Assembly (NCBI GenBank): GCA_947650285.1
Contig: CANTFL010001455.1
Coordinates: 62,001-126,000 of the forward strand
DNA length: 64,000 nt
Source of the DNA: Hyaloperonospora brassicae
Taxonomy: Eukaryota; Oomycota; Peronosporomycetes; Peronosporales; Peronosporaceae
Reading direction: 5' to 3'
The notes beneath the pieces are model-generated. The model did no database searches and was not told the DNA's origin. It was given only the letters and a program-made list of their open reading frames with translations. The position numbers and the translations under genes are program-made. Below are positions 35,919 through 60,827 of this stretch, one piece after another. Every line of letters begins with the position of its first letter. Position 1 is the first letter of the stretch.

Positions 35919-36314
35919 TGTAACGGGGCACACCCTTGCGTGAACTTAACGCAAGGGTTTCGGGTGCCCCGACAGACGTACACGAGGCGAACGAGGAAGC
36001 GTAGACAAGGGAAAAGCAGAACTGTTATATTAATATAATTAAGTCTTTTAACCTACTGTCTCTCTGTTTAACCTGACTTAATTATACTAATCTAACTGAG
36101 TGTATGGTGAAGTCTACGTCACCACTCATTGCGCGCGTCCTGCGGCGATTGGTGGGTTGATATCATCAAGATATCAACCAATGAGCAGACTCTTTGGTAG
36201 ACCCATCAATATCACCACTATTGGTGATATTGTTAAAAGAATTTTCAACATAACATTCTTTATTGTCATTATCTCTCAAATGACAATTTCCATGTAACGG
36301 GCTGCCCCGTTACA
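35919..36314 (-). repeat. 3' LTR of element A
   Basis: 396 bp, TG...CA, with long terminal inverted repeats (TGTAACGGGGCA / TGCCCCGTTACA). It differs from the 5' LTR of the same element at many sites (for example TTTAACCTGACTTA against TTTGACTTTACTTA), far more than the internal regions of A and B differ from each other. Confidence 0.93.
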
Positions 36315-36445
36315 TCACATACCCCTTAACTGATCGTCACCGTGTGACTATCAATATATGGCGGCCACCCGTTGGACACCATTGGGACAGCGAGCACTTG
36401 TTGGGTCCGTCCCATTCACTTTCCATCCGACCTCGCATAGTTAAC

Positions 36446-38050
36446 ATGTCTATGCGGGGTGAATCAAGACACGCACAGACCGCTACTGTGCCAGCCTCTG
36501 CGGCAGACGATTCGTCGTCTGATGCTCGTTCTTCGCCTGCAGCAAGAGGTGCTGCAGGTGCACGCGGTACAGCACCGCGTGCGCATGATGACCCCGACAT
36601 TGAGGTCATCTACTCTGGCGAGTCAGACGTGTCTGACTCGGGCAATGTTCCAGAGGCGTCTCGATCACCGGCGACTCCTCAGTATTCGCCAAGGCCACTG
36701 CCGAACGAACGGACTCCTATGTTGCAAAACAGTCTGTTCGCCAGTGATGATGAATATGATGATGAGTATGATTGCTCATCACCTCGATCAGCTCGTGCTC
36801 CTTCGCACGAGCGACCTGACGATGGTGCAAGCCATCGTCATACTGACAACCGTGGTACCAACAAGGTTACTATCGTGAAACGTGATGAGCTGAAGCCGTG
36901 GCGTTTGCCTGAACGGCTCTTCAATGGCTTGTCTCACGAGACAAGCTAACACCATTGAATACCTTTATTCGATGCGACTGAGCTTCACAGCTTGAGTCCT
37001 AGCGCGAGCAACTTTCGCGCTGAAGAAGATTTTTATCTCGATGTCTTCCTTAGACATCGATGGTACAACAGCAACCAAAAGCGTGACAAAGCCTCGCTTT
37101 TGGCTGCGTGGAACGCGTTCGTCCAAAACGTAAAGAATTTTGGACGAGAAGGGTGGCTCAAGAAACTTGAGGCAACACGCCTCAGGTTCAAACGGCGAAC
37201 GCCAACCGGTGCTAGGTACCGGTTGCATCGATTATCAAGTGAGGCAGGCATTCCTTGCCTCACATGGGGAGACCCTTGTACGAGTTGTGTTGACAACTCG
37301 CAGCGTGCACATAGGGACGTGTATTCCCTAAGCTCGCCCTGGGGAAGGGCACACATCTCGGAGGAGATGCGTGACGCGATTGCAAACTTGCAATCCGTCT
37401 ACAAGCGCCTAGGGCGCGTGTTTACCGATGGGCCACAGGACTCATCGGATGGGTCTCGTCATACTGGCGGACGAGACCTTCAACATCCATCAACAGCTGA
37501 GAGTGGGGCTCCCAGCTGTTCCAAGAAGGTGGATACCCCCGCCGCTGGACGAGGTAGCTCGTCCTTGATCCTGAATCGTCACGGTGGATCAAGATACGCT
37601 CCAACAGAAAGCGTTGACCACCGTGAGAATCCACCAAAGGATGTGGTGGAGGAGGAAAGACCTCCTCCAGATGATTCTGCTCACCATCTCGACCCTTACG
37701 AGATGGACCGCGCAATCGAAGAATCGCGCGATGACTTGAAGCACGAGCGCGACCGGCGCTACGCTTTGACTGATACCGTGCGGAAGAACCGCAAGGATCG
37801 CGAGGCTGATCGGGCGAGAGACCGCGCCGATTACGCCACAGCGCAGCTTCAGGTCGAGCGGGATGTCCGCTCCCTATTCGGCGAGCTGACGAAAGCTCGC
37901 GGGGAGATATCTCAGTTAAGTTCCGAGGTATCTTATCTGCTCGACCAGACGGATCGTCTGGAGCGCGAACGCAAGAACTTGATGGATGTTATTGAACGTG
38001 GGGGCTATCTTCATCGGAAGAAGAAGGCTCGTAATGACAGTACGGTCTGA
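36446..38050 (+). CDS. Antisense gene of element A (hypothetical protein, possible two-exon structure)
   Basis: Antisense to gag-pol, just inside the 3' LTR. The first part (ATG 36446 to stop 36947-36949) is Ser/Asp-rich and acidic. The second (about 36992-38050) lies in the same frame without an early ATG. A 60-nt GTCTCA...TTCACAG segment (36931-36990, phase 2) would remove both stops between them and give one protein of 514 residues; the donor is not a strong one. The second part starts with a possible folded domain ([20 protein letters not shown], about 80 residues). A Pro/Ser linker and a long charged coiled coil (about 37680-38010) follow. It overlaps the chromodomain reading frame on the other strand. 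The same arrangement exists in element B, there with a 1-nt frameshift. Function is unknown. Confidence 0.5.
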
Positions 38051-38399
38051 GTCGCCCCACGTAAAACGTAGGATGCGTGCGCTTCTTACGTGGCAATTCG
38101 AGTGTGTATGCATTGCCCTTGCGATGCAACACTCGAAATGACGCAACGTATTTCGGCAGTAGTTTACTACTGCCGACACTAGTGACTGCATGTCCAGGTA
38201 AGTTTACCGTAGACAGTAGTACTAGGTCAGTAACATTAAACGAAAGAACATTTGCTCTTCCATTCTTGTCTGCGTTCCGTTTCTGAAGGTCCACCGCATA
38301 TGCAATGGAGTCCCGAACGAAACGGACTACCGAATCTCGAGTCAGCAGGGAGTTCTCTGCTGACTCTTTGTTTTGTCTTTCAGTGCGCTTCGTGCGCAC
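37422..38399 (-). pseudogene. Pol C-terminus of element A: GPY/F module and chromodomain
   Basis: The 38399-37989 part carries the integrase C-terminal GPY/F-type module ([37 protein letters not shown]). It ends at a TAA where element B reads through. The 37715-37422 part keeps an intact chromodomain ([33 protein letters not shown]). In chromoviruses this domain steers integration to modified histones. The usual aromatic-cage region reads YLVQRRGYP instead of YLVRWRGYP, so histone binding may be weakened. Confidence 0.85.
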
Positions 38400-38402
38400 T
38401 GG

Positions 38403-39455
38403 CTAAGAGATTGCTCTCTTCTTCAGCGAGGTTGTCTTCTTCCTCGCTGGAATAATCGTTGACGATGCTGAATATACCAGCATCGTCATCATCATCCGCA
38501 TCAGTAATAGCGGCGACGCTATTACTGAGGTGATCTTCTTCATCGATGTCGACTTGATCGACATCAGCATCATACGTGACGACGTTAGCGTCAACACGTG
38601 ATGAGCAAGAGCCAAAACGGTTTTTGCTCGAGCGAGTCCCTCCCCCCTTATCCAAGAGTCACACTCTAGAAGGGTGGGGACACGTGGATGGCGTAAACCA
38701 TTCACGTAAAACGGTGTGTGCTGTGTGGAAGCATGCACCGAATTATTGATGGCAAATTCCACCATGGGTAGGAATTCGTTCCAACTCGAAAACGAGTGGA
38801 CATATCCTCGAAGGATCTCTTCGAGGACACGGTTCGCACGTTCCGTCTGACCATCTACTTCGGGATGGTCAGAAGTAGACATCTTCAATCGTGTTCCGAG
38901 AGAACGGAACACGGTTTGCCAAAATGCCGCCGTGAACCGAGGGTCACGGTCGGATACGAGTTCACAGGGCAACCCGTGAAGTCGGAAGATCGTGTCAAGA
39001 AAGACACGACAACAACCTTGAGCCGTGATGGACTCAGGGACAGCAGCAAGATGCACCATCTTGCTGAACCGGTCAGCGAACACAAGAATGCCATTATTCT
39101 TGTGGTCGTCTTCGGAAAACCCGAAGACGAAGTCCGTTGAAACGGACTGCCAGCACTCTGTCGGAACAGGTAGAGGCTGTGACGCATGGTCGGTATACAC
39201 GATGAACGGTCTATCTCCCAAGAGATAGACGTGAAACTTATCCAGTGCGTACTTCATGGCAAGGCGTCCCTTGTCATGCACTGGGTAATTACGCTCAGCT
39301 GCTTGCAGCTGACGCGACTGATAACAGATGACGCGCTCCGCGCCATCTGCATCGAACTGCATTAACGCACAGCCGATTGCAAAATCGCTGGCGTCACAGA
39401 CCACATGAAATGGTCTGTCCTGATCTGCAATCGCCAAGATCGGCGATTGCATCAA
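38403..39455 (-). pseudogene. RNase H/integrase fusion of element A
   Basis: Starts with the RNase H-like part (FHVVCDASDFAIGCALMQFD, YTDHASQ) and then jumps directly to integrase (PTECWQSVSTDFVFGFSEDD). The distal RNase H, the zinc-binding HHCC region and the linker are gone. The integrase D-D-E residues remain visible in STDFVF, SDRDPRF and DGQTERANRVLEE. Element B has the same join. After integrase, a run of six G shifts the frame into an artificial tail. Confidence 0.88.
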
Positions 39456-39470
39456 GCTTTGCTTGATACC

Positions 39471-40855
39471 CTAAAAGGAGCGCTGGCACTCAGCGTTCCA
39501 TGACCACTTGATATTTTTCTTGAGGAAGCAAGAAAGATGAACAGTCATCTCGGCGTAGTTGCGCGAGTACTTGTGCAAGTACGCCGCTAGACCAAGGAAC
39601 TTCCTTAGTCCCTTGACATCGACTGGCGATGGCCAGTCGGTGATCGCCTTGATCTTTTCGGGACCAGGGCGTACGCCGTGTTTACCCACGATGCACCCAA
39701 GAAGTGGTATTTCGCTAGCCGCGAATATACACTTCTTGAGGTTGGCGTACAACTTATGCCTGCGCATAAGTCGGAGAACCTGACGAACGTGAGTTCTGTG
39801 AACTTCAACGTCCGTCTTTCCGTCCATGGCCCGGCTATGGACGAACACATCGTCGAAGTAACTCGGTGAGAAGTCTCGCACCGGTCTCAACAGATTTGTG
39901 ACACATCTGTTGAATGTTGCAGGGGCATTGCTCAGCCCCTGTGGCATAACTAGCCACTCCCACAGCATCCCGCTGGGGGTACTCACTGCCGTGAACGGGA
40001 TGTCGCGTTCACGCATGAGGATCTGATAGAATCCATTATCAGATCCATGGACGAAAAGATGGTACTCTTTGACATACCATCTATAATTACGTCCTTCCTC
40101 GGTATGGGCGTCTGAGCCGGTACCGTTGCAGCATTCAATTTGTGGAATGGGTGCACTATCCGCCACCCTCTTGTGGCCTTTCGCACACAGAAGGTTGGAG
40201 AGCTGTGAGGGCATGTTGATTCCCTCACATGGCCCGCTGCAAAGCGATCGGCAAAGAACTTGTCGATCGCTAGTACTTGTTCACGAGGCAGTGGCCACTG
40301 CTTCATGACAAAGTACTTAGAGCCCGGTTTGAGCTCGATCTCGTGTCGAGTGCATTTTTCCTTGGGCAACTCGCAAGGTACGGATTTAGGGAATACATCC
40401 TTGAATTCGATCAAATCCTTATACAAAAGATTTGCCTGAAGTGACTCCCAGGATTGAGACGTGTATCGCTTAATCCGAGTCTTCTCATCGAGGACACTTT
40501 CGTCCATCGATGAGCTGCTGAGAACCCGTTCGTTCTCAGCAAATACTGTGGCCGACCGAATATCGGCCACATACTCATCCTCTGTGACGAGTATGCAGAT
40601 CTACTTGAATTTGCCACTACGCAGATCACGCAAGAACCGTTTCGGTTCTAGTGTTGGCAACTGAGTTATCTCCGAAGTTAACTTCGGAGGCACAATCAGA
40701 TCAAGTGTATAAGCATCTACGCTTGATCCGTCATTAACCAAGACGTTCAACGTCTCGGTTACTTCCTGGGAACTTCGTTCCACAGGTTGCTGAAGGCATA
40801 ATCCTTCAGCAAGTGACTCTTGAGGAATTCCTTCCTCATGTACGTGAGGACTCAT
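39471..40855 (-). pseudogene. Reverse transcriptase region of element A
   Basis: Three pieces: 40855-40601, 40570-39983 and 40214-39471. An in-frame TAG separates the first two. A one-base shift inside the RT palm (after FSSMDL, before GFYQILMRERD) separates the last two. Motifs are KQWPLPREQ, FCVRKATRGWRIV, MPQGLSNAPATF, and YFDDVFVHS with the catalytic DD (FDD for YxDD), then LRKFLGLAAYLHKY at the connection. The last piece ends at a TAG (39471-39473) before the RNase H part. Confidence 0.9.
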
Positions 40856-40917
40856 CCCTCGACGTCTTCTGACTGTGGCTGTGCAACCACAGTCAGGGAC
40901 CGATCCTCTACGGTCGA

Positions 40918-41646
40918 CTATCCAGTCGACCTAGGATTTACATGTTGCCCTTTGAAGGCAACAGGTTTCTTTTGTCTAAGATGCTGCCCGCTAGACATGC
41001 ATCCATGTCCCGGTCCACTCGACTTATTCGATTGGTGGACCTTTGGCGCCGCCTGTACTTCTGTACAGTCGCCGGGAGCTTGCTCCACAGTGTAGTGATT
41101 AACTACACTGTGATCTTGTGCGGTCGTGCGAACGACCGAACCGCAAGTGAGGCCATCGCACTCACTTGCAAAACATCCACACGCTTGTGGACGCTCCAAG
41201 ATGCTCATCAGATGGCCATCTGATGAACAAGCGGCCGGCATCTTCACGGATCGATGCTGCCAGCTCACTCTTGGCTTGTACCTTCTGAGCCAAGGTAATC
41301 CCAGGATGACATCAAATTTGTCATCCAGATCCAGTACGATGAAGTCATCATCGTACTGTTCGCCCTCTAACGTGTAGTGGATTCCTACTACACGTTTCTC
41401 AACGGTTATCGATGCGCCTGTTGCAAGGCGCACCGTCATCCTCGTGAGATGAATGTCGCGCTCAACGAACTTGAGCCTACGACCCTCTAGTGACTGGCGA
41501 CGAACAAAGTTGTTCGACGCCCCACAGTCTACTAGGGCACGAAGCGACAAATCATTTGTCGCTTCCAACTTCAAGGTGATGAGCGAAACGTCATCACCAG
41601 GTGCAGAGACACACAATGATTGTGTATCTGGAGCAACTTTCGTCAA
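40918..41646 (-). pseudogene. Retropepsin region of element A
   Basis: 242 residues with LRALVDCGASNNFV, the aspartic protease active site in its DCGAS form, and FDVILGLPWL, the second conserved hydrophobic-Gly motif. It ends in TAG. It is in a different frame from gag and from RT, so it is either expressed by frameshifting or disabled. Confidence 0.88.
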
Positions 41647-41919
41647 GAGATTTGCAAATTCTCTTGAGGTTGCTAAATCAGTAGGGCGCTCCGCCCCTAC
41701 TGACCCCGACCATTTTTTGATGGTCCGTCTCGCTGTTTCGGCTTCGCATCAGCGCTGGACCCACACCCATTGCCCTTTCTGGCAAATGGTCGTCCATTTC
41801 GCTCAGTACTGTTTGGTACTGGGCGTGGAGCACTACACTCGTATGCGTAGTGCCCTAACTTCTGACAGCGATTTCACCTCTGCAATCGCTTGTTGTTTGA
41901 AGAGCGAGGTCTCTCGCTC

Positions 41920-42852
41920 TCAACATAGCAGAGGTCCATTGGTTCTGGACCTCCGAGTCTCTTGTTGTCTAGGTGGACGATAAGAGTTTGAGCTAGCATG
42001 AGCCTGTCTCATGCTAAAGTCTTCCTGTCTCGCGGCTGATATCGCATCTTCTAGCGTATTCAGCTCAAGGCGGAACAGGTGGCTCCTGACGGGCCCTTCT
42101 GCGAGCCCTTGCATGAACACCGTATTCAACGTGTGTTCATGAACTGGGTTAGCAGTTATACTACTCGCGAGGAGTCGTATATGTTGAGCGTAAGCGTGCA
42201 CATCACGCTTACCCTGCTTGAGTTTCAGGAGCTCTGAACGAGCCCTGAACTTAGCCCGTGGAGGCTCAAACGTTTGTCTGAGCTGGGACTTGAAGTCATC
42301 TAGCGACCTAAACACATTTGGGTCGCTACTCTCGAGCCCCAGGGACCAAGTTTTGGCACGTCCTGCCAAGTGGGTCTGAGCAAATGTGAGTTTCATTTGC
42401 TCATCTTCGACGCGACGAGCCCTTAATGCTCTGTCGAGTTCGACAAACCATAGTAACAGGGAGTCTTCCAGGACTCCACTGTACTTGGAGATTTCAGCCT
42501 TCATGACTTCGGGACGACGCACATGTGCCGTCCCGCCCACAGCAGCATGGAATTGCTGCTGTCTCAACAGCTCTGTCTGTTGAGCACCGATTTCTCTCAA
42601 CTGCTCGGCCTGTTGAGAGCCTTGCTGGTGAAGCAAGGCTACTTTCTGCCTTTCGGCGACAAGTTCATGTTGAATGAACTTGGCTATAGCGGCATGTTGT
42701 TGGCCTCTGTCTAGAGACTCCAACATGGCGCTAATGGCGAACTCGCCTACGGTTGAACTCATTCGTTCTACCGCACCCCATTCGATGTCACTCAAATGGT
42801 TAAACCCTTCACGCGTGCCGTGAAAGGTCTTTTCATCATCCAACATGTTCAT
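41920..42852 (-). pseudogene. Gag of element A, frameshifted before the zinc knuckle
   Basis: 310 residues, nearly identical to the first 300 of the gag of element B. A one-base insertion in A near 41968-41975 leads to an early stop, so the CCHC knuckle present in B is lost from this frame. The gag homology block (LWFVELDRALRARRVEDEQ, LAGRAKTWSLGLE) is typical of oomycete Ty3 gag. Confidence 0.9.
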
Positions 42853-42876
42853 GTTGGATGTTGTGGTCCTTGGAAG

Positions 42877-42894
42877 GACTACAAAGTGCTACCA
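42877..42894 (-). other. Primer-binding site of element A
   Basis: On the minus strand TGGTAGCACTTTGTAGTC begins 2 nt after the 5' LTR. TGG complements a tRNA CCA end. I cannot say which tRNA. Element B has the same sequence. Confidence 0.65.
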
Positions 42895-42896
42895 TG

Positions 42897-43289
42897 TGTA
42901 ACGGGGCACACCCTTGCGTAAACTTAACGCAAGGGTTTCGGGTGCCCCGACAGACGTACACGAGGCGAACGAGGAAGCGTAGACAAGGGAAAAGTAAAAC
43001 TGTTGTATTAATATAATTAAGTCTTTAACCTCTGTCTCTCTGTTTGACTTTACTTATTTATACTAATCTAACTGAATGTATGACGGCGTCTACTCACCAC
43101 TCATCGCGCGCGTCTTGCGGCGATTGGTGGGTTGATATCATCAAGATATCAACCAATGAGCAGACCCTTTGGTCGACCCATCAATATCACCACTATTGGT
43201 GATATTGTTAAAAGAATTTTCAACATAACATTCTTTATTGTCATTATCTCTCAAATGACATTTTCCATGTAACGTGATGCCCCGTTACA
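42897..43289 (-). repeat. 5' LTR of element A
   Basis: 393 bp, TG...CA. One mismatch (GTGATGCCCCGTTACA for the usual GGCTGCCCCGTTACA) interrupts its terminal hairpin. In the body it resembles the B 5' LTR most (TTTGACTTTACTTATTTA, GGCGTCTACTCACC). Confidence 0.93.
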
Positions 43290-49501: not shown

Positions 49502-49524
49502 ATTACTTTAGACAGGTTCTAGTG
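49502..49524 (-). repeat. Right terminal inverted repeat of the pogo-like element
   Basis: Pairs with 47451-47473. A second partial copy of the same end sequence (CTGTCTAAAGTAATAA) lies inside at about 49448. Confidence 0.85.
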
Positions 49525-49794
49525 GATAAACGAGCAAGTACGAGACCGGATCTAGAAGCTAGCGATTGGTACAGAACAGGGCGAAGACCAGATCTGGGAG
49601 TTGGCGGTCGACACAAAGATCTGCGCAGACCAGATCTCAAAGCTGGCAGTCGCCACAGAGTAGTTATGGGACCAGTGCGAGATGGTGGGGGCTGACACGG
49701 TGACCAGATCCAAAAGCCAGCTTCATTGGTCAAATGTCGGGCGGTACTTGGGTGGTCCAGGGCTTGCAGCCACGATGTTTCACGTGTTGGTTTC

Positions 49795-49811
49795 TCATTC
49801 CATAAAGTTCT
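49795..49811 (+). promoter_or_regulatory. Initiator plus flanking element of the effector gene
   Basis: TCATTCCATAAAGTTCT fits the oomycete initiator core (TCATTCC) followed by the A/T-rich flanking promoter region. It lies 28 bp upstream of the ATG at 49823. Transcription starting here would exclude the upstream in-frame starts at 49682 and 49774. Confidence 0.5.
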
Positions 49812-49822
49812 CAATCGACACG

Positions 49823-51196: not shown

Positions 51197-51659
51197 GGTC
51201 ATTTGCGAGCACAGTAAAACTGCATTCGTTTTGATTCGTACTATGATGATTGTTCCATCATCTGTGTGTCTGTGGTTTCTCATTCATCTCCTCTGTAATA
51301 GCACGTATCGCATCCGTAACACGCGGGGCCTCATCGGCGACTATCAACCTAACTTCGTCGGCGATCGACGCATGCCCAGCCAAACCATGCTGTGTATATG
51401 CGCCATAGGTCGGAATGTCTCGTCTGCGATATCTCATAAACTTTTGTAAGTCACACTGCTTTGTTCTCACTAATCAATCGTCGTGGCGCTCGGGATATGT
51501 AAAATCGACCTATGTTGCGTCAAAAGGATGCAATCAAGCCGTCGAGCGTTGTTCGAGATTCGGATGACTTAGGTGCAAAATACAATACACATATATGCAT
51601 TCGCTGGATATAAACAATTCAATCGAGCGCTACATCCGTGTTAGACTTGCTTATTTTCT

Positions 51660-52262
51660 CTAATGTAGCCAGCCACATGGTAAAGCTGATTCACAGATGT
51701 TATGTGCATGTGGTAAGTAAGATTGTTGCTTGCATGTTGTCGCATATATCTGTGTATATAAAGTCTTAATTGTCCATTGCACGTACCGATCGTAACGCGA
51801 TTGAAGTGTCGCTTGCGTTTCTTCGTGTTGCTGACACATGCGCTTCCCGGACATTTTTGTTTTTATCTTGTCAGAAGGAAGCTTACGATCAATGTAATTG
51901 AGCAAAACTGCATCGATATGGTGACACGATGAAGCAAACCTGGCATTAATGAGGTGCTTCGTGGCGTAATCGATGCGATCACCGGATTTATAAATAGCGT
52001 GTGTTGTACGGACAATAGAAACCACTGCATTTAGGGTTGTGAGTTTCTTTACACCGTGCAATGAGTGCAATGAGTGCAAAGTAGTAAGTGGAAAGGTCGG
52101 CTTTATGATGACTTCGTAGTTTTTGGAACGACTAACTTGGCGCTACCCGCCGCGCTCCACGTACTTGTTCTCTATCTACACATGTACGCACACCGTTCTT
52201 ACCTTCATCATCCAAGGCCTTGGTTTACCTTCGACCTTACCCCACTTCTGTGATGTAGATTC
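51660..52262 (-). CDS. Possible two-exon gene fragment, unrecognised
   Basis: A short open piece 52262-52203 (ESTSQKWGKVEGKPRPWMMK) ends at a good GTAAGA donor. It joins in phase 0, across a 60-nt intron ending CGGGTAG, to 52142-51660 (RQVSRSKNYEVIIKPTFPL, then a charged stretch with DRIDYATKHLINARF and DRKLPSDKIKTKMSGKRM, stop at 51660). A further acceptor-like TTGTACAG precedes the first piece. I recognise no family and found no start. It may be a real gene or a chance fit. Confidence 0.25.
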
Positions 52263-53462
52263 CTGTACAATCGAAGATCCTGCTCGAGCGTGTTGACCCC
52301 AGTACCTGCAATCGTGATTGAAGCGCCGTGATACGCCATGATGCGGTAGTAGTAATCATAGGTAATACAACAACCTCCTAGCAACAGGTGGGAGTTCTCA
52401 AACGTCGATTCAAATGAATCGTGCACGCGTGAGCGTGATTATTCTTGCTGTATTTGGAGGAAACCAATGCGTGGTAGACATTGTCCTGGTGCTAGAAAAG
52501 CTGTCTAATACTAACGGCCGATAATTTAGATAGCAGCGTTAGTACACGGTTTTTGGTGCGATGTACTTGCTTACAAGCTTAGCAAAACGTTACTCTGAGA
52601 TATGCAAGCGACAAGATGACACCCCATTGAATTAGGTGCTGACCGGATATAGCAGCCGCGCCTATAGAGCGCTACTAATGACTGACAATATCGAGATCGT
52701 AGATACTAAAAATGAACAACTACCATGCATGCATATTGGTAGATGACATCTTAGGTATAGACGCGCTGTCCGAATAAGGAATGCACTAGTTTGGTGTGTG
52801 ATTATAGAGCATGTCATTTGTGCTGGCATAGAAGCGTTGTATGAAAGTAGTTTACACGGGTCGCGTTGTATGGTCGCAATGTAATATGCGTCAAACGGCA
52901 TGTGCTAGCTTGCAAACACTGACCAAGGTTGCGTAGTGCTTTCTTGTGCGCAAACAGGTGTAACGATACAGCGATTTGACATCATCGAATGAACATCTTC
53001 TATGATTGCTGGTGTTCACGAATTGCAAGCACACCAGCTTGCTTATTCACCGGTTGTCAATAACTTTACCCCAATTTTGACTGTGGTTTGTTATCTAAGA
53101 TTTACGCATGTCGAACTTGTACGGCGCTCTACAATACTATTTAACGAAGTAAGAGCAAACAAATGTTTTGACACCGGATAACGGATACACTCGATTATTT
53201 GCAATCCAAATCATTCCCTTGGACATCCATTTACTGCACAAAAAACGTGGTTATCAAAATTGTTGAAATCAATGAAATTCTTTACAAGTCCATCGAATGC
53301 TTGGTCGTAAAGAGAGATTTATACCGCGCGGTCGTCCAGGTCACCCTGGGGTGGTCTGCGAATACCCTGACTCAGTTTGAACTCCTTACAGGACCCGCAC
53401 CCCTCATTACACTATGGGGCTTTTCGGCTTAGGATGCCTCCAGAGCCCTGCACTACACCCTG
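52263..53462. other. Region without a supported gene
   Basis: AT-rich sequence with no motif. The last 130 bp before element B (about 53330-53462) is GC-richer. In the pre-inversion order it would adjoin the palindrome-rich stretch at 35638-35918. Confidence 0.5.
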
Positions 53463-53853
53463 TGTAACGGGGCAGCCCGTTACATGGAAGTGTCACTTTA
53501 AAGAAAGTGACAACAAAGAATATTAAGTGAATATTCTTTGAACAATATCACCGATAATGTTGATATTGGTGAAGCGACCAAAGGGTCTGCTCATTGGTTG
53601 ATATCTTGATGATATCAACCCACCAATCGCCGCAAGACGCGCGCGATGAGTGGTGAGTAGACGCCGTCATACATTCAGTTAGATTAGTATAAATAAGTAA
53701 AGTCAAACAGAGAGACAGAGGTTAAAGACTTAATTATATCAATACAACAGTTTTACTTTTCCCTTGTCTACGCTTTCTCGTTCGCCTCGTGTACGTCTGT
53801 CGGGGCACCCGAAACCCTTGCGTTAAGTTCACGCAAGGGTGTGCCCCGTTACA
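53463..53853 (+). repeat. 5' LTR of element B
   Basis: 391 bp, TG...CA. About 80 bp of its U3 (53490-53570) differ strongly from the other three LTRs, yet still fold into three hairpins at the same places, including GTCACTTT/AAAGTGAC (53492-53511) and AAAGAATATT/AATATTCTTT (53515-53539). Confidence 0.93.
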
Positions 53854-53855
53854 CC

Positions 53856-53873
53856 TGGTAGCACTTTGTAGTC
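53856..53873 (+). other. Primer-binding site of element B
   Basis: TGGTAGCACTTTGTAGTC starts 2 nt after the 5' LTR, as in element A. The complement ends in CCA, as a tRNA 3' end should. Confidence 0.65.
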
Positions 53874-53897
53874 CTTCCAAGGACCACAACATCCAAC

Positions 53898-55019
53898 ATG
53901 AACATGTTGGATGATGAAGAGACCTTTCACGCCACGCGTGAAGGGTTTACCCATTTGAGTGACATCGAATGGGGTGCGGTAGAACGAATGAGTTCTACCG
54001 TAGGCGAGTTCGCCATTAGCGCCATGTTGGAGTCTCTAGACAGAGACCAACAACATGCCGCTATAGCCAAGTTCATTCAACATGAACTTGTCGCCGAAAG
54101 GCAGAAAGTAGCCTTGCTTCACCAGCAAGGCTCTCAACAGGCCGAGCAGTTGAGAGAAATCGGTGCTCAACAGACAGAGCTGTTGAGACAGCAGCAATTC
54201 CATGCTGCTGTGGGCGGGACGGCACATGTGCGTCGTCCCGAAGTCATGAAGGCTGACATCTCCAAGTACAGTGGAGTCCCGGAAGACTCCCTGTTACTAT
54301 GGTTTGTCGAACTCGACAGAGCATTAAGGGCTCGTCGCGTCGAAGATGAGCAAATGAAACTCACATTTGCTCAGACCCACTTGGCAGGACGTGCCAAAAC
54401 TTGGTCCCTGGGGCTCGAGAGTAGCGACCCAAATGTGTTTAGGTCGCTAGATGACTTCAAGTCCCGGCTCAGACAAACGTTTGAGCCTCCACGGGCTAAG
54501 TTCAGGGCTCGTTCAGAGCTCCTGAAACTCAAGCAGGGTAAGCGTGATGTGCACGCTTACGCACAACATATACGACTCCTTGCGAGTAGTATAACTGCTA
54601 ACCCAGTTCATGAACACACGTTGAATACGGTGTTCATGCAAGGGCTCGCAGAAGGGCCCGTCAGGAGCCACCTGTTCCGCCTTGAGCTGAATACGCTAGA
54701 AGATGCGATATCAGCCGCGAGACAGGAAGACTTTAGCATGAGACAGGCTCATGCTAGCTCAAACTCTTATCGTCCACCGAAACGACAAGATATCGGAGGT
54801 CCAGAACCAATGGACCTCTGCTATGTTGAGAGCGAGAGACCTCGCTCTTCAAACAACAAGCGATTGCAGAGGTGCAATCGCTGTCAGAAGTTAGGGCACT
54901 ACGCATACGAGTGTAGTGCTCCACGCCCAGTACCAAACAGTACTGAGCGAAATGGACGACCATTTGCCAGAAAGGGCAATGGGTGTGGGTCCAGCGCTGT
55001 TGCGAAGCCGCAACAGTGA
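53898..55019 (+). CDS. Gag of element B (capsid and CCHC zinc knuckle)
   Basis: 373 residues, starting 44 bp after the LTR at an ATG set in the hairpin 53891-53912. Gag forms the virus-like particle and binds the RNA. Residues 110-230 hold the retrotransposon gag block (SLLLWFVELDRALRARRVED, GRAKTWSLGLESSDP, RQTFEPPRAKFRARSELLKL). The knuckle CNRCQKLGHYAYEC is a CX2CX4HX4C near residue 335. A Gln-rich coiled segment (about 75-105) could aid assembly. It ends in TGA, overlapping the protease frame by 37 nt in the -1 register. It is intact, unlike in A. Confidence 0.92.
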   Translation: MNMLDDEETFHATREGFTHLSDIEWGAVERMSSTVGEFAISAMLESLDRDQQHAAIAKFIQHELVAERQKVALLHQQGSQQAEQLREIGAQQTELLRQQQFHAAVGGTAHVRRPEVMKADISKYSGVPEDSLLLWFVELDRALRARRVEDEQMKLTFAQTHLAGRAKTWSLGLESSDPNVFRSLDDFKSRLRQTFEPPRAKFRARSELLKLKQGKRDVHAYAQHIRLLASSITANPVHEHTLNTVFMQGLAEGPVRSHLFRLELNTLEDAISAARQEDFSMRQAHASSNSYRPPKRQDIGGPEPMDLCYVESERPRSSNNKRLQRCNRCQKLGHYAYECSAPRPVPNSTERNGRPFARKGNGCGSSAVAKPQQ

Positions 55020-55831
55020 GACGGACCATCAAAAAATGGTCGGGGTCAGTAGGGGCGGAGCGCCCTACTGATTTAGCAACCTCAAGAGAATTTGCAAATC
55101 TCTTGACGAAAGTTGCTCCAGATACACAATCATTGTGTGTCTCTGCACCTGGTGATGACGTTTCGCTCATCACCTTGAAGTTGGAAGCGACAAATGATTT
55201 GTCGCTTCGTGCCCTAGTAGACTGTGGGGCGTCGAACAACTTTGTTCGTCGCCAGTCACTAGAGGGCCGTAGGCTCAAGTTCGTTGAGCGCGACATTCAT
55301 CTCACGAGGATGACGGTGCGCCTTGCAACAGGCGCATCGATTACCGTTGAGAAACGTGTAGTAGGAATCCACTACACGTTAGAGGGCGAACAGTACGATG
55401 ATGACTTCATCGTACTGGATCTGGATGACAAATTTGATGTCATCCTGGGATTACCTTGGCTCAGAAGGTACAAGCCAAGAGTGAGCTGGCAGCATCGATC
55501 CGTGAAGATGCCGGCCGCTTGTTCATCAGATGGCCATCTGATGAGCATCTTGGAGCGTCCACAAGCGTGTGGATGTTTTGCAAGTGAGTGCGATGGCCTC
55601 ACTTGCGGTTCGGTCGTTCGCACGACCGCACAAGATCACAGTGTAGTTAATCACTACACTGTGGAGCAAGCTCCCGGCGACTGTACAGAAGTACAGGCGG
55701 CGCCAAAGGTCCACCAATCGAATAAGTCGAGTGGACCGGGACATGGATGCATGTCTAGCGGGCAGCATCTTAGACAAAAGAAACCTGTTGCCTTCAAAGG
55801 GCAACATGTAAATCCTAGGTCGACTGGATAG
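54983..55831 (+). CDS. Retropepsin of element B
   Basis: 282 codons overlapping the end of gag in another frame. LRALVDCGASNNFV is the aspartic protease active site (DCGAS form) and FDVILGLPWLRRYKP the C-terminal partner motif. The frame closes with TAG, and the RT frame is again different, so a functional Gag-Pol would need recoding more than once. A -1 shift from gag is possible. The element as a whole is disabled further on. Confidence 0.88.
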   Translation: MWVQRCCEAATVRRTIKKWSGSVGAERPTDLATSREFANLLTKVAPDTQSLCVSAPGDDVSLITLKLEATNDLSLRALVDCGASNNFVRRQSLEGRRLKFVERDIHLTRMTVRLATGASITVEKRVVGIHYTLEGEQYDDDFIVLDLDDKFDVILGLPWLRRYKPRVSWQHRSVKMPAACSSDGHLMSILERPQACGCFASECDGLTCGSVVRTTAQDHSVVNHYTVEQAPGDCTEVQAAPKVHQSNKSSGPGHGCMSSGQHLRQKKPVAFKGQHVNPRSTG

Positions 55832-55893
55832 TCGACCGTAGAGGATCGGTCCCTGACTGTGGTTGCACAGCCACAGTCAGAAGACGTCGAGGG

Positions 55894-57278
55894 ATGAGTC
55901 CTCACGTACATGAGGAAGGAATTCCTCAAGAGTCACTTGCTGAAGGATTATGCCTTCAGCAACCTGTGGAACGAAGTTCCCAGGAAGTAACCGAGACGTT
56001 GAACGTCTTGGTTAATGACGGATCAAGCGTAGATGCTTATACACTTGATCTGATTGTGCCTCCGAAGTTAACTTCGGAGATAACTCAGTTGCCAACACTA
56101 GAACCGAAACGGTTCTTGCGTGATCTGCGTAGTGGCAAATTCAAGTAGATCTGCATACTCGTCACAGAGGATGAGTATGTGGCCGATATTCGGTCGGCCA
56201 CAGTATTTGCTGAGAACGAACGGGTTCTCAGCAGCTCATCGATGGACGAAAGTGTCCTCGATGAGAAGACTCGGATTAAGCGATACACGTCTCAATCCTG
56301 GGAGTCACTTCAGGCAAATCCTTTGTATAAGGATTTGATCGAATTCAAGGATGTATTCCCTAAATCCGTACCTTGCGAGTTGCCCAAGGACAAATGCACT
56401 CGACACGAGATCGAGCTCAAACCGGGCTCTAAGTACTTTGTCATGAAGCAGTGGCCACTGCCTCGTGAACAAGTACTAGCGATCGACAAGTTCTTTGCCG
56501 ATCGCTTTGCAGCGGGCCATGTGAGGGAATCAACATGCCCTCACAGCTCTCCAACCTTCTGTGTGCGAAAGGCCACAAGAGGGTGGCGGATAGTGCACCC
56601 ATTCAACAAATTGAATGCTGCAACGGTACCGGCTCAGACGCCCATACCGAGGAAGGACGTAATTATAGATGGTATGTCAAAGAGTACCATCTTTTCGTCC
56701 ATGGATCTGATAATGGATTCTATCAGATCCTCATGCGTGAACGCGACATCCCGTTCACGGCAGTGAGTACCCCCAGCGGGATGCTGTGGGAGTGGCTAGT
56801 TATGCCACAGGGGCTGAGCAATGCCCCTGCAACATTCAACAGATGTGTCACAAATCTGTTGAGACCGGTGCGAGACTTCTCACCGAGTTACTTCGACGAT
56901 GTGTTCGTCCATAGCCGGGCCATGGACGGAAAGACGGACGTTGAAGTTCACAGAACTCACGTTCGTCAGGTTCTCCGACTTATGCGCAGGCATAAGTTGT
57001 ACGCCAACCTCAAGAAGTGTATATTCGCGGCTAGCGAAATACCACTTCTTGGGTGCATCGTGGGTAAACACGGCGTACGCCCTGATCCCGAAAAGATCAA
57101 GGCGATCACCGACTGGCCATTGCCAGTCGATGTCAAGGGACTAAGGAAGTTCCTTGGTCTAGCGGCGTACTTGCACAAGTACTCGCGCAACTACGCCGAG
57201 ATGACTGTTCATCTTTCTTGCTTGCTCAAGAAAAATATCAAGTGGTCATGGAACGCTGAGTGCCAGCGCTCCTTTTAG
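55894..57278 (+). pseudogene. Reverse transcriptase region of element B
   Basis: Three pieces: 55894-56148 (closed by TAG), 56179-56766 and 56535-57278 (closed by TAG). RT motifs are complete in sum: KQWPLPREQ, FCVRKATRGWRIVHPFN, SSMDL, then after a one-base shift near 56710 GFYQILMRERDIPFTAVSTP, MPQGLSNAPATF, SYFDDVFVHS and LRKFLGLAAYL. The stops and the shift occupy the same positions as in element A. Confidence 0.9.
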
Positions 57279-57293
57279 GGTATCAAGCAAAGC

Positions 57294-58370
57294 TTGATGC
57301 AATCGCCGATCTTGGCGATTGCAGATCAGGACAGACCATTTCATGTGGTCTGTGACGCCAGCGATTTTGCAATCGGCTGTGCGTTAATGCAGTTCGATGC
57401 AGATGGCGCGGAGCGCGTCATCTGTTATCAGTCGCGTCAGCTGCAAGCAGCTGAGCGTAATTACCCAGTGCATGACAAGGAACGCCTTGCCATGAAGTAC
57501 GCACTGGATAAGTTTCACGTCTATCTCTTGGGAGATAGACCGTTCATCGTGTATACCGACCATGCGTCACAGCCTCTGCCTGTTCCGACAGAGTGCTGGC
57601 AGTCCGTTTCAATTGACTTCGTCTTCAGGTTTTCCGAAGACGACCACAAGAATAATTGCATTCTTGTGTTCGTTGACCGGTTCAGCAAGATGGTGCATCT
57701 TGCTGCTGTCCCTGAGTCCATCACGGCTCAAGGTTGTTGTCGTGTCTTTCTTGACACGATCTTCCGACTTCACGGGTTGCCCTGTGAACTCGTATCCGAC
57801 CGTGACCCTCGGTTCACGGCGGCATTTTGGCAAACCGTGTTCCGTTCTCTCGGAACACGATTGAAGATGTCTACTTCTGACCATCCCGAAGTAGATGGTC
57901 AGACGGAACGTGCGAACCGTGTCCTCGAAGAGATCCTTCGAGGATATGTCCACTCGTTTTCGAGTTGGAACGAATTCCTACCCATGGTGGAATTTGCCAT
58001 CAATAATTCGGTGCATGCTTCCACACAGCACACACCGTTTTACGTGAATGGTTTACGCCATCCACGTGTCCCCACCCTTCTAGAGTGTGACTCTTGGATA
58101 AGGGGGGGAGGGACTCGCTCGAGCAAAAACCGTTTTGGCTCTTGCTCATCACGTGTTGACGCTAACGTCGTCACGTATGATGCTGATGTCGATCAAGTCG
58201 ACATCGATGAAGAAGATCACCTCAGTAATAGCGTCGCCGCTATTACTGATGCGGATGATGATGACGATGCTGGTATATTCAGCATCGTCAACGATTATTC
58301 CAGCGAGGAAGAAGACAACCTCGCTGAAGAAGAGAGCAATCTCTTAGCCAGTGCGCACGAAGCGCACTGA
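57294..58370 (+). pseudogene. RNase H/integrase fusion of element B
   Basis: 358 codons. RNase H starts normally (VVCDASDFAIGCALMQFDAD, then YTDHASQ) and is cut at about 57568. The sequence continues in integrase at PLPVPTECWQSVSIDFVF. The HHCC zinc finger and part of RNase H are therefore missing, by deletion of an estimated several hundred bases to 1 kb. The D, D and E of the integrase core remain (SIDFVF, SDRDPRF, DGQTERANRVLEE). The tail is a strongly acidic stretch (DADVDQVDIDEEDHL, DADDDDDAG) typical of oomycete chromoviruses. Confidence 0.9.
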
Positions 58371-59352
58371 AAGACAAAACAAAGAGTCAGCAGAGAACTC
58401 CCTGCTGACTCGAGATTCGGTAGTCCGTTTCGTTCGGGACTCCATTGCATATGCGGTGGACCTTCAGAAACGGAACGCAGACAAGAATGGAAGAGCAAAT
58501 GTTCTTTCGTTTAAAGTTAATGACCTAGTACTACTGTCTACGGTAAACTTACCTGGACATGCAGTCACTAGTGTCGGCAGTAGTAAACTACTGCCGAAAT
58601 ACGCTGGGCCATTTCGAGTGTTGCATCGCAAGGGCAATGCATACACGATCGAATTGCCACGTAAGAAGCGCACGCATCCTACGTTTTACGTGGGGCGACT
58701 CAGACCGTACTGTCGGTACGATCCTTCTTCTTCCGATGAAGATAGCCCCCACATTCAAGAACATCCGTCAAGATCTTGCGTTCGCGCTCCAGACGATCCG
58801 TCTGGTCGAGCAGATAAGATACCTCGGAACTTAACTGAGATATCTCCCCGCGAGCTGTCGTCAGCTCGCCGAATAGGGAGCGGACATCCCGCTCGACCTG
58901 AAGCTGCGCTGTGGCGTAATCGGTGCGGTCTCTCGCCCGATCAGCCTCGCGATCCTTGCGGTTCTTCCGCACGGTATCAGTCAAAGCGTAGCGCCGGTCG
59001 CGCTCGTGCTTCAAGTCATCGCGCGATTCTTCGATTGCGCGGTCCATCTCGTAAGGGTCGAGATGGTGAGCAGAATCATCTGGAGGAGGTCTTTCCTCCT
59101 CCACCACATCCTTTGGTGGATTCTCACGGTGGTCAACGCTTTCTGTTGGAGCGTATCTTGATCCACCGTGACGATTCAGGATCAAGGACGAGCTACCTCG
59201 TCCAGCGGCGGGGATATCCACCCTCTTGGAAAAGCTGGGAGCCCCGCTCTCAGCTGTTGATGGATGTTGAAGGTCTCGTCCGCCAGTATGACGAGACCCA
59301 TCCGATGAGTCCTCGTGGCCCATCGGTAAATACGCGCCCTAGGCGCTTGTAG
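58351..59352 (+). CDS. Pol C-terminus of element B: GPY/F module, linker and chromodomain
   Basis: 333 codons in a new frame, overlapping the end of the previous piece by 20 nt. The GPY/F module reads [32 protein letters not shown] and [13 protein letters not shown] 100-residue Ser/Arg/Pro linker follows. The chromodomain reads [40 protein letters not shown] and [10 protein letters not shown]. The linker and chromodomain region is read on the other strand by the antisense gene. Element A has a stop in the linker and a one-base difference near the C-terminus. Confidence 0.88.
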
Positions 59353-60305
59353 ACGGATTGCAAGTTTGCAATCGCGTCACGCATCTCCTCCGAGATGTGT
59401 GCCCTTCCCCAGGGCGAGATTAGGGAATACACGTCCCTATGTGCACGCTGCGAGTTTTCAACACAACTCGTACAAGGGTCTCCCCATGTGAGGCAAGGAA
59501 TGCCTGCCTCACTTGATAATCGATGCAACCGGTACCTAGCACCGGTTGGCGTTCGCTTTTCGAACCTGAGGCGTGTCGCCTCAAGCTTCTTGAGCCACCC
59601 TTCTCGTCCAAAATTCTTTACGTTTTGGACGAACGCGTTCCACGCAGCCAAAAGCGAGGCTTTGTCACGCTTTTGGTTGCTGTTGTACCATCGATGTCTA
59701 AGGAAGACATCGAGATAAAAATCTTCTTCAGCGCGAAAGTTGCTCGCGCTAGGACTCAAGCTGTGAAGCTCAGTCGCATCGAATAAAGGTATTCAATGGT
59801 GTTAGCTTGTCTCGTGAGACAAGCCATTGAAGAGCCGTTCAGGCAAACGCCACGGCTTCAGCTCATCACGTTTCACGGTAGTAAACTTGTTGGTACCACG
59901 GTTGTCAGTATGACGATGGCATGCACCATCGTCAGGTCGCTCGTGCGAAGGAGCACGAGCTGATTGCGGTGATGAGCAATCATACTCATCATCAGATTCA
60001 TCATCACTGCCGAACAGACTGTTTTGCAACATAGGAGTCCGTTCGTTCGGCAGTGGCCTTGGCGAATACTGAGGAGTCGCCGGTGATCGAGACGCCTCTG
60101 GAACATTGCCCGAGTCAGACACGTCTGACTCGCCAGAGTAGATGACCTCAATGTCGTGGTCATCATGCGCACGCGGTGCTGTACCGCTTGCACCTGAAGC
60201 ACCTCTTGCTGCAGGCGAAGAACGAGCAGCAGACGACGAATCGTCTGCCGCAGAGGCTGGCACAGTAGCGGGCTGTGCGTGTCTTGATTCACCCCGCATA
60301 GACAT
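58700..60305 (-). pseudogene. Antisense gene of element B, frameshifted copy
   Basis: The counterpart of the antisense gene in A: acidic exon 60305-59821, the same possible 60-nt intron (59820-59761), then [20 protein letters not shown] onwards. One extra base near 59310-59323 (CCACGAGG against CCACAGG in A) shifts the frame, so the coiled-coil half (59323-58700) is in another register. The coiled half is otherwise preserved, including [12 protein letters not shown]. Confidence 0.5.
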
Positions 60306-60436
60306 GTTAACTATGCGAGGTCGGGTGGAAAGTGAATGGGACGGACCCAACAAGTGCTCGCTGTCCCAATGGTGTCCAACGGGTGGCCGCCATATATCGA
60401 TAGTCACACGGTGACTATCAGTTAAGGGGTGTGTGA

Positions 60437-60827
60437 TGTAACGGGGCAGCCCGTTACATGGAAATTGTCATTTGAGAGATAATGACAATAAAGAATATTA
60501 TGTTGAAAGTTCTTTTAACAATATCACCAATAGTGGTGATATTGATGGGTCGACCAAAGAGTCTGCTCATTGGTTGATATCTTGATGATATCAACCCACC
60601 AATCGCCGCAGGACGCGCGCAATGAGTGGTGAGTGGACGCCGTCATTTATTCAGTTAGATTAGTATAAATAAGTAAAGTCAAACAGAGAGACAGAGGTTA
60701 TAGACTTAATTATATCAATACAACAGTTTTACTTTTCCCTTGTCTACGCTTCCTCGTTTGCCTCGTGTACGCTTGTCGGGGCACGATACCCTTGCGTTAA
60801 GTTCACGCAAGGGTGTGCCCCGTTACA
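60437..60827 (+). repeat. 3' LTR of element B
   Basis: 391 bp, TG...CA. A short purine-rich run (AAGGGGTGTG, about 60424-60433) just upstream is a weak polypurine tract candidate. It resembles the A LTRs in U3 rather than the 5' LTR of its own element. Confidence 0.93.

Follow-up and report, generated by a model that had tools for sequence, protein, structure and literature searches.

The window, that is, the whole stretch of 64,000 nucleotides that was analysed, holds two elements, A and B, of a chromodomain-bearing Ty3/Gypsy LTR-retrotransposon family of the oomycete, with the chromovirus order of gag, protease, reverse transcriptase, RNase H and integrase (Table 1). The boundaries of element B, with LTR ends at 53463 and 60827, are those given in a preliminary description of the locus. 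Both A and B have internal deletions relative to a longer family to which they are related, and B lacks a ~620-nt stretch of its longer relatives at about 57569/57570, as seen from an alignment break and from the LTR spacing. The two elements differ at 201 of 7495 aligned positions, a count that takes in short flanks, and their 5-bp duplications, putative target-site duplications, are swapped between A and B, which fits an inversion between them. The chromodomain (PF00385) was found with Pfam in B and also at 1606-1656 of the pol of copy L043. Additionally, two loci fetched as outgroups, L055 and L056, turned out to belong to the same family as B, with 18 and 17 repeats of at least 8 bp in 1.4 kb.

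The antisense gene encodes 539 aa in L043, and antisense ORFs are longer in the copies than in B. Sequence comparison indicates that this gene is real and under protein selection: between L043 and L031 the dN/dS of the antisense frame is 0.36, the other two frames giving 1.20 and 1.71, and its protein has 12 homologues. The structure predicted for this protein has a mean pLDDT of 50.6 and a pTM of 0.26.

Table 1. Elements, reading frames and hairpins located in the window
Feature	Coordinates	Strand	Remarks
5' LTR, element B	53463..53853	+	391 bp, 12-bp terminal inverted repeat; 9-bp hairpin at its start
3' LTR, element B	60437..60827	+	391 bp
gag frame, element B	53898..55019	+	373 aa; Pfam Retrotrans_gag, Ty3_capsid; zinc knuckle under cut-off
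Protease frame, element B	54983..55831	+	Pfam RVP_2; contains most of hairpin-dense 55021-55663
Reverse transcriptase frame fragment, element B	56535..57278	+	Pfam RVT_1
RNase H, then integrase core, element B	57294..58370	+	Pfam
Integrase C-terminal part (SH3_Tf2-1) and chromodomain, element B	58351..59352	+	Pfam
Antisense gene, element B	59250..60407	-	two frames (ORFs), 59250-59759 and 59802-60407
Element A, second copy	35919..43289	-	LTRs 35919-36314 and 42897-43289
Hairpin tiling, element B	53463..60827		132, 83 and 29 stems of at least 6, 8 and 10 bp
Example hairpin	55184..55208		12-bp stem, 1-nt loop
Example hairpin	55391..55417		11-bp stem, 5-nt loop
Perfect palindrome	55523..55544		11-bp arms, zero loop
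Example hairpin	55637..55663		11-bp stem, 5-nt loop
Perfect palindrome	56060..56079		10-bp arms
Example hairpin	56703..56730		10-bp stem, 8-nt loop

Perfect hairpins along the elements

Hairpins were counted as non-overlapping perfect inverted repeats, the main class having stems of at least 8 bp and loops of at most 12 nt. The counts for element B (Table 1) compare with averages of 23.8, 2.1 and 0.15, and at most 35, 5 and 1, for stems of at least 6, 8 and 10 bp in 20 dinucleotide shuffles, and element A gives 132, 78 and 29 against shuffle means of 21.9, 2.05 and 0.25 and maxima of 31, 9 and 1. Outside the elements, the window contains 14 inverted repeats of at least 8 bp in about 48.9 kb. 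The excess is kept over codon-preserving shuffles, the pol of four long-ORF family copies holding 63-66 repeats against shuffle means of 1.4-1.8 and a maximum of 5 (n = 20 each). Each of the 30 family loci examined, A and B among them, carries the hairpins, and the tiling extends over the LTRs, gag, pol and the antisense gene.

These results confirm, and exceed, what the preliminary description had proposed, namely a pattern that runs through LTRs, coding frames and antisense gene and recurs in element A. The eight hairpins that it quoted were all located, with two corrections of detail: the stem at 55184-55208 has 12 bp rather than 11, and the palindrome placed at 55524-55543 spans 55523-55544. 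For 55021-55663, where about 17 stems and 8 of at least 8 bp had been counted, we obtained 18 non-overlapping stems of at least 6 bp and 10 of at least 8 bp. The proposed spacing of one stem every 35-40 nt holds as a median (37 nt between centres in L043) but not as a regular interval, the SD being 32 and hairpin-poor gaps reaching 186 nt.

Chance, composition or codon usage as the source of the hairpins is ruled out by the codon-preserving and dinucleotide shuffles, with shuffle means of about 2 (maximum 9) against 63-83 repeats seen. A dispersed palindromic repeat is likewise ruled out, the arms having no common sequence family, and 53463-60827 yielded 0 Rfam matches to a known structured RNA family at gathering score. 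Taken as a single explanation, chance, composition, protein sequence or a dispersed repeat is therefore extremely improbable.

The commonest hairpin of the A/B family has a 9-bp stem and a 5-nt loop, spanning about 23 nt, and there is roughly one hairpin with a stem of at least 6 bp per 48-56 nt. Loops of 4-6 nt, the optimum for a hairpin, are the most frequent, and the longest perfect stem in L043 has 14 bp. Loops of up to 12 nt are enriched and those of up to 30 nt weakly so, with no excess beyond about 30 nt among loops examined up to 400 nt; therefore, the folding is local. A whole hairpin of at least 5 bp is held by only 22% of 21-nt windows, against 6% in a shuffle.

Folding energies agree between the strands. 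The folding-energy excess over shuffled controls in 250-nt fragments (MFED) averages 46-49%, with a mean of 45.6% in L043, and lies above 20% in all 30 fragments of L043, all 30 of L031, 28 of 29 in B and 26 of 29 in A. The folding energy of L043 pol is 30 SD (sense) and 27 SD (antisense) below that of 20 codon shuffles; the difference between the strands is within shuffle level, and the sense strand is not favoured. Predicted accessibility is reduced on both strands in families F1 and F3. Additionally, no consistent preference for G-U over A-C was seen, either in the interior mismatches of L043 (8 and 6) or in the pair variants of 28 copies (GT 48, AC 41; shared 6 and 15, singletons 42 and 26). 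Strand-symmetric pairing of this kind, lacking a G-U preference, argues against simple selection on the sense RNA. The "globally folded" genomic RNA suggested earlier thus does not stand as worded, since the folding is local and of equal strength on the two strands, with no consistent preference for G-U over A-C.

Other families of the genome and the coding sequence

Hairpin enrichment extends to two further Ty3 lineages of this genome, mostly at different positions, one of them with 5-bp mini-hairpins. The geometry is family-specific: F1 has mostly 9-bp stems with 5-nt loops and F3 has 5-bp stems with 3-5-nt loops, the spans being about 23 versus about 13. The third Ty3 family (L058 and L059) has no stem of at least 8 bp but is not hairpin-free, since each of four 900-nt pieces holds 25-29 mini-hairpins of 5 bp where about 7 are expected. 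L063, 98% identical to L058 and with a broken frame of which 405 nt were usable, has 8 against 4.1, within the shuffle maximum. L060 is not a separate family, being 98% identical to L052, and its 813-nt frame does not rise above the shuffle maxima (9, maximum 9; 2, maximum 2).

Two copia elements of the genome are not hairpin-enriched; in one copia control, L054, the antisense strand folds better than in codon shuffles of the element (z -3.1, compared with 0.1 for the sense strand). Among ten between-family comparisons, hairpin positions are strongly shared only between F3 and F3b (18/26) and marginally between F2a and F2b (2/12, p=0.04) and between F1 and F3b (4/16, p=0.05), the other seven giving p=0.07-1. 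No relatives were confirmed in viral contigs, and the only hit in genome contigs, a weak match of 42% in a bacterium, was set aside.

Hairpin sizes that differ between families of one genome are not expected if a single host enzyme set the size, and suit a reader encoded by the element. The hairpins could serve the packaging or compaction of genomic RNA, either as many weak sites for the element's own Gag/nucleocapsid, each family's Gag preferring its own size, or by giving a compact RNA for the virus-like particle. Besides the family-specific geometry, the tiling of the entire element, all of which is in the genomic RNA, would fit such a role, as would an encoded Gag whose zinc-knuckle match is under the Pfam cut-off. 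The sense-strand loops of F1 are A-rich (in two regions A reaches 0.33 and 0.32 and T 0.24 and 0.25, the null values being 0.245 and 0.25), which hints at sense RNA. This richness is found in F2a too, but not in F2b and F3, and no clear common motif emerged from the loops or arms (commonest loop 3-mers 1.3-2.7 times background; shared arm 7-mers 22 vs 15 and 8-mers 4 vs 1, observed against shuffled arms). Considering also that the sense strand is not favoured and that G-U lacks a consistent advantage over A-C, packaging seems an unlikely role.

Our results show that the hairpins are local and compatible with the protein. By codon phase the counts are 29, 22 and 9: the phase in which third positions would pair with each other is avoided, and the two favoured phases take 51 of 60 (p=0.002), a bias that is expected if hairpins are built by synonymous choice. 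Conservation is slightly lower in the columns of stem codons (column maximum 0.746 vs 0.793), and the residue most common among homologues is present in L043 at 73.9% of codons in stems vs 75.6% outside. Departures from homologue residues in conserved columns amount to 5/80 in stems and 15/314 outside, and loss of protein quality at stems is not seen in L043.

Constraint and paired changes in the stems

Old decayed copies stand beside young copies with identical LTRs, a built-in neutral control by which selection on the stems becomes directly measurable. On the branch of the young copy L031, changes affect 1/1756 stem sites vs 45/4335 others (p=4e-6), and on the L043 branch 15/1766 vs 158/4455 (p=2e-10), including 7/312 vs 58/539 (p=2e-6) in the fast antisense region; taken alone, neither the third positions of the L031 branch (p=0.065) nor the LTR of the L043 branch (p=0.19) reach significance. 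Stems change less than other sites on 11 of the 12 copy branches tested, and, among 22 copies, stems have fewer of the variants common to at least two of them (odds 0.44, p=1e-14, a guide only, the copies being related). In contrast, the rates are equal in the old copy L033 (27/1974 stem vs 68/4904 other, p=1), and changes private to A or to B affect stems about as often as non-stems (ratios of 1.19 and 1.0). The private stem ratio is low (0.46) in L032, yet its LTRs are 91% identical, and ranges over 0.8-1.3, with few changes, in the young copies L034, L046 and L047. The hairpins are thus conserved during the mobile phase and tend to decay as copies grow old, with constraint that varies among copies. 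Alternatively, the mutation rate in stems may be lower during the RNA/cDNA phase.

The lack of constraint in L033 and in the private changes of A and B makes a role in integrated DNA unlikely. It also weighs against the palindromes acting in the duplex or in single-stranded cDNA as small cruciforms, hairpin intermediates or sites for symmetric DNA-binding proteins. Although strand symmetry without consistent G-U preference, the sharp commonest span of 23 nt and the zero-loop palindromes (55523-55544 and 56060-56079) are in line with such dyads, the loops peak at the hairpin optimum, the arms have no common sequence and the F1 sense loops are A-rich, so that we regard this explanation as quite improbable.

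Paired compensatory changes, proposed earlier as a check on alignments of the family, outnumber those expected under independence in 11 of the 13 ordered comparisons (over all 13, 0-5 vs 0.01-0.55 expected); between B and L043, 4-5 were seen and 0.05-0.55 expected. In one hairpin, the arms were retained through a paired change while the loop was replaced. Such pairs might arise as a mutational by-product, if the reverse transcriptase switched template at imperfect inverted repeats and copied arm onto arm, palindromes then accumulating and staying perfect without any function. Consistent with this idea, pairs are Watson-Crick and strand-symmetric, every region is affected, geometry is family-specific as a property of the enzyme would be, and hairpin positions of different families overlap about as by chance; creation and repair of stems by template switching have also been reported for DNA replication (PMC8794818). 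However, free arm-to-arm copying predicts far more paired changes at the neutral rate than were seen (35.4 against 2 in L043, 9.5 against 0 in L031, 41.4 against 2 in B). This expectation ignores joint protein constraint; in the LTR/UTR and antisense parts of L043 alone it is 21 against 1 seen. The stems of L043 have also departed no further from homologue residues, and the two copia elements of the genome lack hairpins. Neutral arm copying as the sole maintaining force is ruled out by the shortfall, and the by-product explanation as a whole appears doubtful. The replication-linked making of palindromes proposed earlier is therefore not supported as a maintaining force (about 35 paired changes predicted in L043, 2 seen), but may still have created the hairpins.

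Possible roles and known systems

The sequence patterns lead us to favour, tentatively, local folding of both strands, under selection, that would hinder annealing and silencing. Purifying selection would keep the hairpins so that the single-stranded nucleic acids of the element fold locally on themselves, the most likely benefit being that transcripts of both polarities would be trapped in local stems. This benefit is suggested by the Watson-Crick, strand-symmetric pairing, by the real antisense gene and by the small RNAs of both polarities that lie along two P. infestans Gypsy elements (PMC3522703). Trapped transcripts would form long dsRNA poorly and would be poor targets for guide RNAs and, as a consequence, silencing would start less easily. 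The shielding from silencing suggested in the preliminary description may thus apply. The perfect stems themselves, of at most 14 bp in L043, would be too short for feeding Dicer. Several observations speak against this reading: guides could use the hairpin gaps of up to 186 nt, few 21-nt windows (22%) hold a whole hairpin, the hairpin size differs between families, and the F1 sense loops are A-rich.

With similar caution, we propose that an oomycete Ty3 clade may have independently rewritten several element genomes, largely by synonymous choice, as strand-symmetric perfect hairpins of family-specific size. These would form a second code over the genes, read in single-stranded RNA/cDNA of both polarities, either by a machine specific to the element or by the silencing machine of the host, and the architecture would be one undescribed in any retroelement. 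No description of hairpin-tiled LTR retrotransposons was found in literature titles and abstract openings among the matches listed, which covered few subscription papers.

Families of different hairpin size in one genome constitute a natural experiment on the reader of the hairpins. If their role is to hinder annealing or silencing, a counter-defence would be written in codon choice; if it is packaging, a retroelement would hold a many-site packaging code. The stems are also a confounding factor wherever codon usage, dN/dS or small-RNA targets are analysed in such elements.

The RNA phages MS2 and Qbeta, with RNA-only replication in bacteria, carry dense local hairpins in both strands, which are thought to prevent annealing of plus and minus strands. 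By analogy, the dense local hairpins on both strands of the present elements may be comparable, unlike as an LTR retrotransposon is to RNA-only bacterial replication. The order of Gag, protease, reverse transcriptase, RNase H, integrase and chromodomain is shared with chromoviruses, to which the element adds the hairpin tiling and the antisense gene. Template switching that makes or repairs hairpins, described for RNA genes and for DNA replication (PMC8794818), would account for perfect Watson-Crick stems with paired changes, whereas here there are over a hundred stems per element, conserved rather than pair-changing. The genomic RNA of yeast Ty3, as probed by SHAPE-MaP, is well folded in a core that makes up about 20% of it, and has six short palindromes close to its 5' end (PMC11381356, in part). 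The present elements share with it a Ty3/Gypsy LTR-retrotransposon RNA with stable local motifs, predicted in our case, but are tiled with perfect 8-12-bp hairpins, which the same part of that report does not mention for yeast Ty3.

A close parallel is the genome-scale ordered RNA structure (GORS) of positive-strand RNA viruses (coronaviruses, HCV, pegivirus), described as a genome-wide folding-energy excess in coding sequence with reduced diversity at paired sites, the MFED record quoted there for vertebrate RNA viruses being 23.4% (PMC7642675). Likewise, the folding energy of the element is well below shuffles throughout and variability is lower at paired sites. Unlike GORS, the present case concerns LTR retrotransposons, with a mean excess of 46-49% vs 23.4% (from 250-nt fragments and a different shuffle), and consists of discrete perfect hairpins mostly of one size class, with no excess beyond loops of about 30 nt, no strand bias or consistent G-U preference, and size classes that differ by family. 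Genome-scale RNA structure, so far an RNA-virus idea, appears here in an LTR-retrotransposon family, about twice as strong as the record quoted and readable directly in the DNA through its discrete perfect hairpins.

Hairpins in the family and in other lineages

The preliminary description had proposed that short inverted repeats tile whole elements A and B, two Ty3/Gypsy copies of a family here called F1, and its eight example hairpins are as described. Element B contains 132, 83 and 29 non-overlapping stems of at least 6, 8 and 10 bp (loops of at most 12 nt), compared with 23.8, 2.1 and 0.15 in dinucleotide shuffles. The excess stands when pol of four copies is shuffled with its codons preserved: 63–66 repeats of at least 8 bp are seen versus means of 1.4–1.8 (maximum 5), and 25–26 stems of at least 10 bp versus 0.15–0.25. 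The window outside A and B holds 14 inverted repeats of at least 8 bp over about 49 kb; the longest stem there, a perfect one of 12 bp closed by a 6-nt loop (11442–11471), lies inside a FYVE-domain ORF.

Searching its own genome (100.6 Mb, 898 contigs; 114 of 8802 candidates scored) with the RNase H/integrase protein of B returned at least 115 matches, which include A and B. From around the best of these we took 30 loci, counting A and B, together with 20 larger stretches; hairpins are present in 30 of 30 loci, most weakly in copy L021. In L043, another F1 copy, 46% of bases lie within 165 hairpins (stem of at least 6 bp), and stems of at least 8 bp most often have loops of 4–6 nt and a span of 23 nt. 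Enrichment is present for loops up to 12 nt, weak up to 30 nt and absent above. Within the LTR, the longest gap between hairpins (L043:100–245) carries, by eye, one larger stem-loop, in which about 10 bp enclose a loop of about 23 nt and an outer stem is added.

Our survey covered three Ty3 lineages and two copia elements, the two other Ty3 lineages (F2 and F3; 46–59% protein identity) being sampled as 0.7–1.4-kb pieces. The check on other elements gave a divided answer, as hairpins occur in F2 and, at another size, in F3, and enrichment is absent from copia L053 and L054. F2 (L051; L052, the same as L060) has 8–10-bp hairpins, with 9, 6 and 2 stems of at least 8 bp versus 0.3, 0.4 and 0.1 in shuffles (maximum 2 each). 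The F3 pieces L058, L059, L061 and L062 have no stem of at least 8 bp and carry 5-bp stems with 3–5-nt loops, 25–29 versus about 7 expected per 900 nt, a tiling that escapes any search for stems of at least 8 bp; in the decayed F3 piece L063, hairpins do not exceed shuffles. The trait extends beyond one family, and its size differs by family. That each family has its own size is the strongest point in favour of the main rival to the role that we prefer, namely that the hairpins are a packaging code read by Gag. Hairpin centres of different families overlap about as often as expected by chance, and a few F1 and F2 hairpins do coincide in position, with different sequence (e.g., AGCAAGATG/CATCTTGCT and AGCAAAATG/CATTTTGCT); F3 and F3b, 90% identical, have 18 of 26 centres in common.

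Elements A and B and the antisense gene

Coordinates of the two elements and the antisense gene (window positions unless a copy is named)
Feature	Position	Strand	Remarks
Element B	53463–60827		two 391-bp LTRs
Element A	35919–43289	-	second copy
Antisense gene	59250–60407; L043:5752–7368	-	539 aa in L043

The frames of B encode Gag, protease, RT, RNase H, integrase and a chromodomain. About 620 nt of longer relatives are absent from A and B at B position 4107/4108 (window about 57569; 57569–57570), and this internal deletion, common to both although they are separate insertions, suggests a deletion derivative that transposed after the loss. Among eight of the 20 larger stretches whose ORFs were inspected, seven have a stop-to-stop pol frame of 1601–1666 aa, the frame being split in L037. 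LTR identity (201–336 bases compared) is 100% in nine of the 20, 98.4–99.7% in nine, and 91% and 93% in two. Protein relatives total 2348; the 120 listed are 60–89% identical, with Peronospora effusa (89%), Globisporangium splendens and several Phytophthora species among their named sources. These sources point to a peronosporalean oomycete as the host.

Element A is flanked by CAGGG (35914–35918) and TCTGT (43290–43294), and B by CCCTG (53458–53462) and ACAGA (60828–60832). Since the 5-bp target duplications are exchanged between the two, the intervening 10.2 kb or so (43290–53462) was probably inverted via recombination of the inverted copies. Within this presumably inverted segment sits a 504-aa ORF (49682–51196) with a match to the WY domain (RXLR-type effector) of 27.2 bits, the Pfam cut-off being 26.7.

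An antisense frame of 430–540 aa lies near the 3' end of all eight copies examined. The gene is under protein-level selection: between L043 and L031, a further F1 copy, its frame has a dN/dS of 0.36, and the two remaining frames have 1.20 and 1.71. The protein has 12 homologues, from metagenomes and Peronospora matthiolae (two so named), no Pfam family above cut-off, and a predicted long C-terminal helix (422–523) in a poor structure model.

Constraint on the stems

For a given copy, changes were counted at sites where two other copies agree, inside versus outside stems. Stems changed less often than other sites in every copy tested (12 copies, not independent of one another) except the old copy L033, where the two rates do not differ (27/1974 versus 68/4904): the counts are 1/1756 versus 45/4335 on the L031 branch, 15/1766 versus 158/4455 in L043, 52/1854 versus 203/4493 in B and 14/1756 versus 79/4334 in L032. 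On the L043 branch, constraint is seen at third codon positions (4/322 versus 30/765, p=0.02) and in the antisense region (p=2e-6); the difference is not significant in the LTR alone (p=0.19), nor at third positions of the L031 branch (0/318 versus 9/743, p=0.065).

Variants common to at least two copies amount to 0.041 per stem site versus 0.089 elsewhere, and singletons to 0.062 versus 0.088, a smaller depletion; private changes of A and B are spread evenly over stems and non-stems. We read from this a constraint that acts between transpositions and not on chromosomal copies. L032 departs from the pattern, being old yet low in its private stem ratio, as do some young copies, whose private changes are few and whose stem ratios lie near 1.

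Between B and L043, 4–5 paired changes are found versus 0.05–0.55 under independence, all of them single pairs and double transitions. Paired changes are above independence, yet rare: simple arm-to-arm copying would give 35 on the L043 branch, where 2 are seen. Replication-linked making of palindromes, suggested in the preliminary description, is accordingly not supported as the force that maintains the stems, though it may have created hairpins. In one hairpin (L043 7013–7038, L031 7001–7026) the loop has been replaced, with the arms kept through G-C/A-T exchange.

Hairpin axes fall 29, 22 and 9 times in the three codon phases, the third-with-third pairing phase being avoided. L043 carries the commonest homologue residue at 73.9% of stem codons versus 75.6% outside, and deviates at conserved columns in 5/80 versus 15/314. 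The hairpins have cost the protein little.

Folding strength, strand and possible role

In 200-nt windows, L043 pol has a folding energy of -87.9 kcal/mol in sense versus -58.2 in codon shuffles (z -30), and of -84.8 kcal/mol in antisense versus -55.4 (z -27); the sense-antisense gap is no greater than in shuffles. The control copia L054 reaches z -3.1, on the antisense strand only. Stems have no consistent preference for G-U over A-C: interior mismatches of L043 number 8 and 6, and 28 copies together have 48 and 41 pair variants (singletons 42 and 26, shared 6 and 15). The absence of a consistent G-U preference, together with strand-equal energies, suggests to us that selection acts on both polarities, or else on Watson-Crick complementarity as such. 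One feature counts against it: loops of F1 show a modest enrichment in A on the sense strand, which F2a shares and F2b and F3 lack. Stem mismatches of single copies show strand bias in opposite directions (GT 10/AC 1 in L032, GT 1/AC 7 in L035, GT 3/AC 9 in L048), possibly from damage or editing that struck one strand of the copy concerned.

Stems that slow strand annealing have a parallel in RNA phage, Dicer needs a certain stem length, and RNA structure has been reported able to block RNA interference. Our preferred role for the hairpins is that local stems on both polarities hinder annealing and silencing: in transcripts of both polarities they would slow sense-antisense annealing and, by concealing targets, would make silencing less readily initiated. 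For stretches of 8 and 16 nt, the predicted accessibility falls below that of codon shuffles on both strands in F1 and F3, is mixed in F2a and does not change in copia L053. In P. infestans, small RNAs of sense and antisense polarity are described all along two Gypsy elements (PMC3522703).

No description of hairpin-tiled LTR retrotransposons was found in the literature searched. The mean folding-energy excess, computed on 250-nt fragments versus dinucleotide-preserving shuffles, is 45.6% in L043, 48.9% in L031, 42.3% in B and 38.5% in A; it is 5–13% in other Ty3 families (3–5 fragments each), and about -2% for the two copia elements. Two stretches of host DNA give -1.3% and 1.8%, one fragment there reaching 37%. 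The nearest known systems are two, the genome-scale ordered RNA structure of RNA viruses and the RNA map of yeast Ty3, in which PMC11381356 places a well-folded core at about 20% of the RNA. PMC7642675 quotes an excess of 15% for SARS-CoV-2 and a vertebrate RNA virus record of 23.4%, figures with which the F1 values can be compared only approximately, fragment length and shuffle being different.
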